64,000 nucleotides of DNA from Geobacillus thermocatenulatus (GTDB taxonomy: Bacteria > Bacillota > Bacilli > Bacillales > Anoxybacillaceae). Under the pieces are notes generated by a model. The model was not told the origin of the DNA. It searched no databases and saw only the letters and a program-made list of their open reading frames with translations. Positions 23,340-48,156 of this stretch are shown here, piece after piece. The stretch covers positions 311,164-375,163 of the forward strand of contig NZ_NEWK01000002.1 of NCBI RefSeq assembly GCF_002217655.1, in the 5' to 3' direction. The stretch's first letter is position 1, and each line of letters opens with the position of its first letter. Both the position numbers and the translations under genes were made by a program.

Positions 23340-24278
23340 TCAAAAGTATCGCTTTTTCCAAAAGATATACGCCGTCGCCGCTGACAGTGAACCGGCGAGC
23401 GCCATCGCGATCAAAAAGGCGTACGGAGAGTGTTGGTACGGAATCGGTACGTTCATGCCATAGAAACTCGCCACCATCGTCGGCAGCGAAATGACGATCG
23501 TAATGGCCGTCAAAAACTTCATCACAATGTTTAAGTTGTTTGAGATGACCGAAGCAAACGCGTCCATCATGCCGCTTAAAATGCTGCTGTATACTTCGGC
23601 CATTTCAATCGCCTGCTTGTTTTCAATAATGACGTCCTGCAGCAAATCTTGGTCATCTTCGTACATGCGCAAATAGTTGAGGCGCATAAGCCGCTCCATG
23701 ACGATGTTGTTTGCTTTGAGCGACGTCATGAAATACACCAAGCTTTTTTCCATGCTGAGAAGCGAAAACAGCTCCTTGTTTTTCATCGACTGGTGCAATT
23801 CTTTTTCGATTTCGCTCGTCCGCCGATTGATTTGCTTCAAGTAGCGCAAATAATACGTGGAAATCATGTACAGCATTTGCAACGCAAACCGCGTCTTCAT
23901 AAACGTGTAAAAGTTTTTGATTTTGTTTTTGGAGAATTCTTCGAAAATCGGATTCTCCTGCAAACAAACCGTAATAAAACACGTGTTCGTAATGATCATG
24001 CCGATCGGAATCGTCTCGTAAATCGGGCCGTCCACTTCATCATGGGCGACAATCGGAATGTCGACGATAATGAGCACATGGTTGTCTTCCTTTTCGACGC
24101 GCGACCGCTCCTCGTCATCCAACGCGTCTTTGATCGAATCGATCGGAATGTCCAAATGGTGGGCGATGTAGCGAATTTCGTCTTCCGTCGGGGCAACGAG
24201 ATTGATCCAGCAGCCATTTTCAATATGATCGATTTCGCGCATTTTGCCGCTGGCATCGGACAAATACATTTTCATCAT
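23340..24278 (-). CDS. CorA-family Mg2+ channel (second copy)
   Basis: A 312-aa CorA with a long helical stalk and two C-terminal membrane helices; the selectivity motif is FYGMNVPIPY after the first (ITIVISLPTMVASFYGMNV). The C-terminus KKRYF is basic, as in the family. It is a different subgroup from the first CorA. AAAGGAGG followed by AAGG lies upstream of tandem ATGs at 24278/24275. The leader upstream contains a short ORF and hairpins that hide this ribosome-binding site, so translation is probably regulated. Confidence 0.92.
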   Translation of the reverse strand: MMKMYLSDASGKMREIDHIENGCWINLVAPTEDEIRYIAHHLDIPIDSIKDALDDEERSRVEKEDNHVLIIVDIPIVAHDEVDGPIYETIPIGMIITNTCFITVCLQENPIFEEFSKNKIKNFYTFMKTRFALQMLYMISTYYLRYLKQINRRTSEIEKELHQSMKNKELFSLLSMEKSLVYFMTSLKANNIVMERLMRLNYLRMYEDDQDLLQDVIIENKQAIEMAEVYSSILSGMMDAFASVISNNLNIVMKFLTAITIVISLPTMVASFYGMNVPIPYQHSPYAFLIAMALAGSLSAATAYIFWKKRYF

Positions 24279-24285
24279 CTGGCAT

Positions 24286-24443
24286 CCTTCCTCCTTTTCA
24301 CGCGAGGAAGGCGGCGCCTCTTCCTTTCCGACCGGAGCCCGTTTTCGTATGATGAGCAGCCGGCAAGAAAAGGAACAGGCCGCGTTCCCCGCTATATTCC
24401 GGTTCCGGTTCGTTCGGGCTTGAACTACTCATATACGAAAACG
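24286..24443 (-). promoter_or_regulatory. corA leader with mutually exclusive hairpins
   Basis: Three stems can be drawn on the minus strand. The first pairs 24425-24443 with 24340-24359: 11 bp, one bulge and 8 more bp, covering the start codon of a 44-codon leader ORF. The second is a hairpin at 24306-24324 (GGAA/TTCC and GGC/GCC pairs around a 2-nt bulge). The third pairs CCTTCCTC (24304-24311) with GAGGAAGG (24286-24293) and buries the corA ribosome-binding site. The second and third share bases and cannot coexist. This is the architecture of a translational attenuator; Mg2+ control is inferred from the downstream gene. Confidence 0.55.
24298..24432 (-). CDS. Leader ORF upstream of corA (44 aa, EPEPE motif)
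   Basis: ATG at 24432, TGA at 24298-24300, 19 nt before the corA ATG and inside the loop of the hairpin that hides the corA ribosome-binding site. The peptide begins MSSSSPNEPEPEYSGERG and ends with a basic tail. An AAAGGAG lies 14 nt before the ATG, a long spacing. Alternating Glu-Pro near the N-terminus is the feature that destabilises ribosomes at low Mg2+ in the enterobacterial MgtL leader. Whether it is translated is unproven. Confidence 0.45.
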   Translation of the reverse strand: MSSSSPNEPEPEYSGERGLFLFLPAAHHTKTGSGRKGRGAAFLA

Positions 24444-24513
24444 CCACTCCTTTCGAAAAAGATGTCCCTCAAGTAATAATAGCGCGGACCGGCCCGTTTG
24501 TATAGTAGGTGCC

Positions 24514-24738: not shown

Positions 24739-24919
24739 CCCCCTCACCTCCTTCGCTTTTACTGTTTGTCGCCAGCCGCCATTTTACTCGAACGAATGAA
24801 GGCAAGGAGCCGCCACTTTATGGAAAGCGTTTTATCCTAAAATTGTCAGCCAATGTTCACACAATCGTTTTACCGGCGCCGTCCATTCACTTATAATAAA
24901 CAAGTGAGGAGGGGAAGCC

Positions 24920-38420: not shown

Positions 38421-38487
38421 CAATGTCTTTTAAGCCAAGGCAAAAGAAAGGCGCAAAACATCCATTGCCGCCTTCCCTTGACATTGC

Positions 38488-38558
38488 CACTCATAGTCAG
38501 CCGATTTACGGTCGGCTGGTAGAGACTCGCAAGCCATATTCTTGCGATTATATGAGTG
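38488..38558 (-). promoter_or_regulatory. Guanine (purine) riboswitch aptamer
   Basis: On the minus strand P1 pairs CACTCATA with TATGAGTG. The conserved core ATATAATCGC..ATATGG, TCTACC and the loop complement ACCGTAAAT are all present. The discriminating base before the P1 3' arm is C (in CTGACTATG), which selects guanine over adenine. It precedes xpt-pbuX, the classical location. Confidence 0.95.
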
Positions 38559-38890
38559 AGTCAGCGCGATTCAGTTATTAGCAGTATACCATGAGGGGGC
38601 GTGTTTGAAAAGCGGGTTTTTAAAAAAACACGAACATTAAACAAAAAAAACTTTCAATCATTCGTTTTTTTCGATATTCGCCTTGACAGAAGCCGTTGCT
38701 TTAACGGGTGGCAAACAGCGTCTTTATAATGGGCTTAATCTCTTTGCTGCATCGCATTGCCTGTTCAATCGCCGGCGCTTTACATGCCAGCAAAAAGAAC
38801 ATTGGCGGGCTCTGCTGCCGCGAGAGAAAATGACGTCTTCATCATTTTTTCACAAACGTCACCATTTGTTCACACTTCCAGCATCGTTTT

Positions 38891-47741: not shown

Positions 47742-48156
47742 CGTTAATCATGTTCTGTAAGCCATGTTCTGTACCTTCGTACTGCAAGCGGCTTTCGCCT
47801 CGTACTCCGGCGGTAATCATCTATCTACAGGCAGCGTACGCCGCCTGTCCTTCCCTCCGTTCATTTCCTTCGGGAAGGTGCCCCTACCATCATTTGGGTT
47901 TCTCGCTCGTGGGGTTTACCGCGTTCCACCTCTAAGGTTTCCCTTAGAGCTGCGTCACTGTGGCACTTTCAGGGTAATCGAACCATATCCGCATGCGGAC
48001 GTAGGTTCTTTCCCCGCCGTCAGCCCAGCCGAAGCCAGACTGCCCTAGCTTATGGATTCGCTAGGCACGAACACTACGGGCATCTCAGCACCGTGCGAGC
48101 ATGGACTTTCCTCTACGGCCGAAACCGGCCGCAGCGATTACCCGAACATGATTAAC
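47742..48156 (-). ncRNA. rnpB: RNase P RNA, bacterial class B
   Basis: The minus strand carries the universal P4 region GAGGAAAGTCCATGCTCGCAC near the 5' end and ACAGAACATGG near the 3' end. The outer helix P1 is GTTAATCATGTTC with GAACATGATTAAC, which fixes the ends to within a few bases. About 415 nt, normal for Bacillota. It is the catalytic RNA that matures tRNA 5' ends, lying between ypsC and gpsB as in B. subtilis. Confidence 0.96.

Follow-up and report, generated by a model that had tools for sequence, protein, structure and literature searches.

A corA leader of Bacillales in which an acidic-proline upstream reading frame probably lets the ribosome sense low Mg2+

The corA locus and its upstream reading frame

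The window, i.e. the whole stretch of 64,000 nucleotides of Geobacillus thermocatenulatus DNA analysed here, carries on its minus strand a corA gene preceded by a leader with a short upstream open reading frame (uORF). The features are as follows.

23340..24278, minus strand: corA, encoding a CorA-type Mg2+ transporter of 312 aa (PF01544, 198 bits; transport itself is predicted)
24298..24432, minus strand: the uORF, 44 codons, MSSSSPNEPEPEYSGERGLF... (ORF list and translation)
24400..24411, minus strand: codons Glu8-Pro9-Glu10-Pro11 of the uORF, a putative ribosome-destabilising motif (40/40 family leaders)
24447..24453, minus strand: Shine-Dalgarno (SD) sequence of the uORF, AAAGGAG, 14 nt from the uORF ATG (read from the sequence)
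24476..24504, minus strand: promoter-like site of the corA leader, TATACA-17-TATTAT (9/12 consensus match; predicted only)

The uORF product is MSSSSPNEPEPEYSGERGLFLFLPAAHHTKTGSGRKGRGAAFLA, which begins MSSSSPNEPEPEYSGERG..., and the stop codon lies 19 nt ahead of the corA ATG at 24278. A 44-codon frame ending at this distance from corA had been proposed in a sequence-only reading of the window, and both sequence and translation confirm it. A GTG start at 24447, which would give 49 codons, was rejected, as the frame is broken in relatives by indels just 5′ of the ATG. The stretch CTATACAA...TATTATTA of the promoter-like site is seemingly kept in the family alignment, and this site, together with a terminator-like hairpin upstream of the leader (24541–24520), suggests that the leader may have a transcript of its own.

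Before that hairpin lies a 51-codon ORF (24747–24592, minus strand; start at 24747 or 24738) with a strong SD and no Pfam match. A purine riboswitch (38474–38575) and a class B RNase P RNA (47753–48149, minus strand), also in the window, are ordinary. No curated Rfam family matches the uORF leader at gathering score, either in the window or at 20 loci. Near these 20 loci the only Rfam hits are M-boxes upstream and one fluoride riboswitch downstream (RF01734), which is just 3′ of corA in one Bacillus (L167 2509–2568). Plasmid and phage collections gave no match.

A corA orthologue is present in 41/41 genomes of the window's family and in 57 of the 229 genomes sampled from the order; two partial matches, one to a second corA in G026 and one in G260, were left aside. 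A DNA search for the leader finds a match in 33/41 family genomes, and reading upstream from corA gives more: of 42 corA loci taken from the family, 40 are immediately preceded by the uORF. The remaining loci are that of a paralogous corA (L088) and that of G007, where a transposon stands between leader and gene; the leaders of the paralogues L088 and L159 are left out of the counts. In G007, one Geobacillus, the insertion brings an IS110-type transposase gene (PF01548, PF02371; L269 614–2008) between the leader and the corA SD, with a repeat of about 4 bp at the joint. The parted leader still encodes EPEP, and corA has lost its anti-SD, which amounts to a natural by-pass of the leader.

The peptide motif is conserved. 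Met1, Ser2 and Glu8-Pro9-Glu10-Pro11 are invariant in 40/40 family leaders, and the codons used are GAA39/GAG1 for Glu8, CCA24/CCG12/CCT4 for Pro9, GAA31/GAG9 for Glu10 and CCG28/CCA11/CCC1 for Pro11. Since there is synonymous variation at all four motif codons, selection appears to act on the E-P-E-P peptide. The second half of the uORF behaves differently: its RNA is largely alignable between family genera, but the reading frame differs, and the position of the stop varies between 37 nt ahead of the corA start and 59 nt beyond it. It seems that what is conserved is the peptide at the front of the uORF and the RNA at its back. A conserved structure that lacks the proposed sensing, such as an mRNA stability element or a protein site, with the EPEP frame as a passenger, is scarcely credible; third-base freedom in codon register, together with the Asp/Glu exchanges described below, points to peptide selection.

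The long distance between the uORF SD and ATG, which had been held to be a weak point, is real and also conserved, with 13–15 nt in 40/40 family leaders. Among 124 distinct leaders of all families, where the gap was measured to the AGGA core and is hence one nt longer than the family figure, it is 14–15 nt in 41 and 9–11 nt in 71.

Three helices and the position of the ribosome

The free leader folds at -76.7 kcal/mol relative to a shuffle mean of -59.5 kcal/mol (z -4.0) and beats 200/200 dinucleotide shuffles. Helices P1, P2 and P4 are formed from the following parts.

24425..24450, minus strand: P1 5′ arm, covering the uORF SD and start codon (folding and covariation)
24334..24359, minus strand: P1 3′ arm, within the uORF (folding and covariation)
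24304..24311, minus strand: anti-SD CCTTCCTC, the P2 5′ arm, also within P4 (pairing, arm swaps)
24286..24293, minus strand: corA Shine-Dalgarno region GAGGAAGG, the P2 3′ arm (read from the sequence, pairing)
24385..24392, minus strand: anti-anti-SD GCGGGGAA, codons 14–16, which can pair with TTCCTCGC at 24309–24302
24354..24392, minus strand: P4 5′ arm, of the putative on-state hairpin (pairing, arm swaps)
24302..24340, minus strand: P4 3′ arm, of the putative on-state hairpin, overlapping the P1 3′ arm and the anti-SD (pairing, arm swaps)

The core of P1 is 19 bp long (24443–24425 with 24359–24340) and has one bulged C and one G-U pair. Because P1 continues outward through GGAGT (24450–24446 with 24338–24334), the SD of the uORF is paired as well. 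In P2 (24311–24304 with 24293–24286) the SD of corA is buried, and the uORF stop is part of the loop. Both stems had been described beforehand, P1 with its 19 bp, bulge and G-U pair (24425–24443 with 24340–24359) and P2 as a stem over the corA ribosome-binding site (RBS), and both are present, P1 being even longer outward. Missing from that list of helices was P4, a 33-pair hairpin (24392–24354 with 24340–24302, -49 kcal/mol) based on the pairing of GCGGGGAA with TTCCTCGC. P4 excludes P1, as the 3′ arm is shared, and excludes P2, as the anti-SD is shared. A hairpin at 24306–24324 had been put forward as the competitor of P2; it was compared across genera by eye only and left out of the counts, and by eye it is possible, but the main conserved competitor is the GGGGAA:anti-SD helix of P4.

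The RNA is bistable, since the GGGGAA behind the motif pairs with the anti-SD. Transcription reaches the corA SD only after P4 has been completed. With that SD included, the leader RNA of the window from codon 13 on folds most stably with P2 again (-55.0), and the on state of the window leader therefore requires that P4 form first.

Conservation of pairing was assessed with an alignment-free arm-swap test, in which the duplex energy of the native arms is compared with that of arms exchanged between species. It was used beside alignment columns because MAFFT misplaces the P1 3′ arm (g2, g9); the P4 5′ arm is apparently also misplaced. Among nine family genera, the permutations as good as the native arms, out of 20,000, number 1 for P4, 106 for P1 and 838 for P2. 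With 25 leaders less than 72% identical, P1 and P4 reach z -9.8 each (0/20,000 each), the base of P4 z -6.2 (0/20,000) and P2 z -3.4 (15/20,000). In the P1 columns of the family, 89.2% of cells are paired vs 34–46% in slid controls. The P1 covariation score is reached by 1/500 shuffles; three pairs have two-sided changes, a modest signal that 22/500 shuffles reach. These comparisons support P1 and P4 as mutually exclusive, covarying helices and P2 as a stem over the corA SD. The earlier proposal had been staked on the ORF and the pairing being shared by relatives, and both are conserved, with stems that covary in the arm swaps.

The output looks translational, as had been surmised, the corA SD being hidden. 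It is very unlikely that the leader acts instead on transcription, through Rho-dependent or intrinsic termination within it, with the SD stem secondary. Rho-dependent termination is described for Salmonella mgtA and corA, and such a mode would agree with published accounts of mgtL, the nearest peptide analogue, described as acting on a Rho-dependent terminator (PMC11282234), and of Escherichia coli corA, which uses Rho (PMC11552253), and there is a weak terminator-like match at 24393–24374 within the leader. Nevertheless, the SD stem is conserved and covarying, and inspection by eye shows no U-run behind P2, either in the window or in the other families.

Counted from the first base of the codon, GGGGAA begins 15 nt after Glu10 in the window leader, and a GRGGAA-like element likewise begins 15 nt after the second acidic residue in 40/40 family leaders. 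In 33 other leaders the distance is 15 nt (14 leaders), 18 nt (9), 14 nt (3) or 12, 11 and 36 nt (one each), and the element was not found in four. The predicted P4-base helix starts 11–19 nt after the second acidic codon in 61/124 distinct leaders; it is lacking in 20 and starts elsewhere in 43.

Folding models relate this spacing to the position of the ribosome. The P-site scan is an equilibrium folding in which only the RNA downstream of the ribosome is free, and a 16-nt leading edge is assumed. With codon 9 in the P site, the nine-genus mean is 3.5 expected anti-SD:SD pairs vs 6.5 expected anti-SD pairs with codons 14–18; with codon 10 it is 7.2 vs 1.5, and the mean exposure of the corA SD falls from 0.42 to 0.11. 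The mean change of partner is thus between Pro9 and Glu10 in the P site, i.e. within E-P-E-P. The window's own genus shows little change (P2 from 6.1 to 7.4 pairs, codons 14–18 from 4.0 to 3.5, SD exposure from 0.23 to 0.10), as does g4, and g9 shows none. When the leader carries no ribosome, P2 prevails except in g3 and g6.

A turn of this kind is found in 10/11 families, from the Pro9/Glu10 equivalent to three codons further, with none in f12. It occurs as the second acidic codon enters the P site in f1, f41 and weakly f23, one codon later in f14, f16, f29, f38 and f47, and two or three later in f9 and f31. Where the RNA behind the ribosome is allowed to pair across it, SD exposure is about 0.2 at the motif and 0.09 beyond; the value at the motif is low because P1 re-forms. 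In these models, a ribosome held on the motif would favour SD release and one beyond the motif would hide the SD, and the spacing between motif and GGGGAA fits a ribosome footprint.

The models also show SD exposure climbing again once the ribosome has passed the P2 5′ arm (codon 40). This raises the question of coupling in the opposite sense, whereby full translation of the uORF would place a terminating ribosome in the P2 loop and open the corA SD, and drop-off on EPEP at low Mg2+ would turn corA off. The uORF stop is 10–42 nt before the corA start in 116/124 distinct leaders, i.e. in or near P2, and P2 belongs to the most stable fold of the free leader, as such coupling would have it. It would leave the conserved GGGGAA:anti-SD helix without a role, however, three uORFs extend beyond the corA start, and an Mg2+ importer would be lowered when Mg2+ is short, which goes against the M-box found on the same gene in family f12 (see below), going by the part of PMC6711546 that deals with this switch. 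Coupling is considered unlikely, and it ranks below translational attenuation by a ribosome at the motif because the GGGGAA:anti-SD helix proved conserved.

Occurrence in the order and relation to the M-box

A covariance model of the SD-to-GCTCC part of the leader (R1) has matches in 20/397 order genomes. Three are outside the family, all directly 5′ of corA, and read EPDP, EPDP and DPE. It should be pointed out that the R1 search was not started from corA, and that 20/20 matches are corA leaders (that of G007 now parted from its gene by the transposon).

Outside the family, 33/47 order leaders have [DE]P[DE], P[DE]P or better (shuffle mean 0.31, maximum 3), and 22/47 have [DE]P[DE]P within 15 codons (shuffle mean 0.01, maximum 1). 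The control consisted of 200 dinucleotide shuffles, with an identical uORF detector on real and shuffled leaders. A stricter first detector, in which an SD pattern was required, missed some sites and gave 33/40 family and 29/47 order leaders; the final one makes no SD demand, has other start and length limits, allows P[DE]P and gives 40/40 and 33/47. The 14/47 leaders without the motif are from f22 (six), f46 (one), f21 (two), f14 (three) and f41 (two).

By eye, uORF, SD stem and a GRGGAA-like element are all retained in the seven leaders of f21, f14 and f41 (L141, L144, L146, L149, L156, L157 and L158), where the motif is weakened, e.g. to NPLPSP, DDPRPG, NPGP or MDSDAHP. They are possibly tuned or decaying sensors.

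The device is present in 42/229 sampled order genomes (9 of the window's family and 33 others). The observation first made in Geobacillus was real but understated, and the leader is no peculiarity of that genus. Of the named-genome leaders, a set that overlaps with the order sample and was counted without a shuffle control, 73/80 have the motif; the window's family contributes 12 of the 80, and outside it the count is 61/68. Genera with the motif include Peribacillus, Mesobacillus, Neobacillus, Heyndrickxia, Schinkia, Rossellomorea, Anoxybacillus and Geobacillus. The seven named genomes without it are two Ectobacillus, one Gottfriedia and four Bacillus sp. records. Outside the order, 1/24 examined leaders has the motif (L246, EPDP), these 24 being part of 62 outside-order genomes with a CorA relative.

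The Glu-Pro codons, whose conservation had been singled out as a check, are thus kept as EPEP in 40/40 family leaders, and acidic-Pro-acidic is found in most orthologous leaders examined beyond. There are 150 motif leaders, all picked for having the motif, and the 124 distinct ones divide into EPEP (52), DPDP (32), EPDP (16), DPEP (10) and variants (14). On a CorA tree (FastTree) of 106 rows, also chosen for bearing the motif, at least 6 and at least 9 Asp/Glu exchanges took place at the two acidic sites. The uORFs are about 25–70 codons long; the acidic/Pro alternation lies within the first ~30 codons of a short ORF, upstream of a CorA gene.

The M-box (RF00380) had been named as the usual device of Bacillota. 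None was found in the window leader or anywhere in the family (0/41 genomes; B. subtilis and L. lactis, used as controls, were positive), but one other family has both kinds of leader in tandem. MgtE was not found in the window's own genome. In the order, the M-box is present in 54/229 genomes: 5/42 with a motif leader, 2/14 with an orthologue but no motif, 47/172 without an orthologue and 0/1 with an orthologue whose upstream region was not read.

In family f12 (G051, G096), an M-box, a terminator-like hairpin and then an EPDP uORF leader precede one corA (L121 1106–1274 and L161). G099 has one corA with a TEPDP uORF leader and a second, divergent corA, 43% identical to the window's, with an M-box (L159 262–431). 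The tandem arrangement on one corA and the pair in G099 tie gene and leader to Mg2+. As described in the relevant part of PMC6711546, the M-box-type switch of B. subtilis mgtE is on when Mg2+ is below 1 mM and off when it exceeds 10 mM.

These findings bear on whether the leader senses proline, tRNA-Pro, EF-P or ABC-F status, as a classical or stress attenuator would, and not Mg2+ itself. Two Pro codons are fixed, and any hold at the motif would switch the RNA. Moreover, in the part of PMC11381351 drawn on here, B. subtilis ribosomes without EF-P stall at Asp-Pro repeats, and supplying more of the ABC-F protein YfmR relieves the stalling. On the other hand, the acidic positions are conserved no less than the prolines, with Asp/Glu exchanges among the motif-chosen rows, the matches of the R1 search are all corA leaders, and an M-box stands in tandem on corA. 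We regard sensing of this kind as improbable.

Proposed mechanism and known systems

The corA leader is quite probably a translational attenuator in which the ribosome is the Mg2+ sensor and low Mg2+ turns corA on; the acidic-Pro stretch probably lets the translating ribosome sense low Mg2+ and uncover the corA start site. Earlier descriptions of such sensing come mainly from enteric bacteria. On a leader without a ribosome, P1 and P2 would form and corA would be off. With ample Mg2+, ribosomes would pass the acidic-Pro-acidic-Pro codons and cover GGGGAA before it pairs, whereupon P2 would form, again with corA off. At low Mg2+, we infer that a ribosome is destabilised by, or held on, E-P-E-P, with P1 open and its leading edge halted just short of GGGGAA. 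The long P4 might then capture the anti-SD before the corA SD is transcribed, and corA would be translated. The conditional is used here for four points: that the ribosome pauses or drops off, that Mg2+ is the signal, that P4 captures the anti-SD kinetically, and that the switch is on at low Mg2+.

The evidence also leans towards a wider claim, namely that Bacillales have a widespread class of corA leaders with the ribosome as Mg2+ sensor that evolved independently of the enterics, that a [DE]P[DE]P hold site is set about one footprint from the anti-anti-SD element, and that the class replaces the M-box or, in one family, stacks behind an M-box on the same mRNA. If true, direct sensing of Mg2+ by ribosome stability is more than an enteric oddity, a second phylum having arrived at it with the same short acidic-Pro code, and there is a possible route to control of Mg2+ uptake in lineages without the M-box. 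More than 100 distinct natural variants are at hand for testing what makes a nascent chain destabilise the ribosome, and the heat-loving hosts may be of use in structural work. The tandem M-box/uORF mRNA allows two kinds of Mg2+ sensor to be compared on one transcript.

The closest parallel in stem arrangement is the Salmonella mgtQ leader of mgtB. As far as the mgtQ sections of PMC8092293 go, this is likewise a short ORF with acidic codons and an Mg2+ transporter downstream; stems 1:2 and 3:4 form vs stem 2:3, the RBS is freed on ribosome destabilisation and the output is translational. The corA leader would work alike, and mutually exclusive stems of this type, one of which hides the RBS, are seen here in both energies and covariation. 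By the same sections, mgtQ has only 8 codons (Asp2, Glu5), with a Pro codon that acts through the stem, and lies between two operon genes of Salmonella, whereas the uORF described here has about 25–70 codons with [DE]P[DE]P and belongs to a corA leader of Bacillales.

The enteric mgtL leader of mgtA is the parallel in peptide. In the passages of PMC11282234 on mgtL, an acidic-Pro-acidic-Pro sequence (EPDP) is near the N-terminus ahead of an Mg2+ transporter, as in the corA uORF, and E. coli ribosomes held by EttA stop with Pro3, the first Pro of E-P-D-P, in the P site. The EPDP of mgtL itself is found in 16/124 distinct corA leaders. The same passages place the mgtL motif at codons 2–5 and describe it as acting on Rho-dependent termination, whereas it is at codons 8–11 in the window's family. 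No Rfam relationship between mgtL and the corA leader was found in the window or at the 20 loci.

The gammaproteobacterial corA motif with its uORF, corL, is likewise a corA leader with the uORF SD in a stem and competing structures, according to the portions of PMC6429828 and PMC11552253 concerned with it. Translation of corL represses corA, as full translation of the uORF described here would. In contrast to this uORF, corL is described as having a single conserved proline, fewer acidic or Pro residues and Rho dependence (PMC11552253, in the same portion). In these two sources, as drawn on here, the motif is reported only in Gammaproteobacteria, and both host and peptide differ from ours. 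The M-box also controls Mg2+ transporter genes in Bacillota, either in tandem with the uORF leader or on a paralogue instead; it is aptamer-based, whereas the corA leader is uORF-based, and it was not found in the window's family.

The best reading is that the corA leader probably joins the stem logic of mgtQ to the peptide code of mgtL. Since no Rfam family matches it and the hosts are far apart, it is apparently of separate origin from the enteric leaders. No Bacillota corA leader of such a kind was found in the literature covered, with subscription papers and preprints mostly outside its scope. What appears to be new is the gene, the phylum and the wide spread (42/229 order genomes); the principle is a known one.
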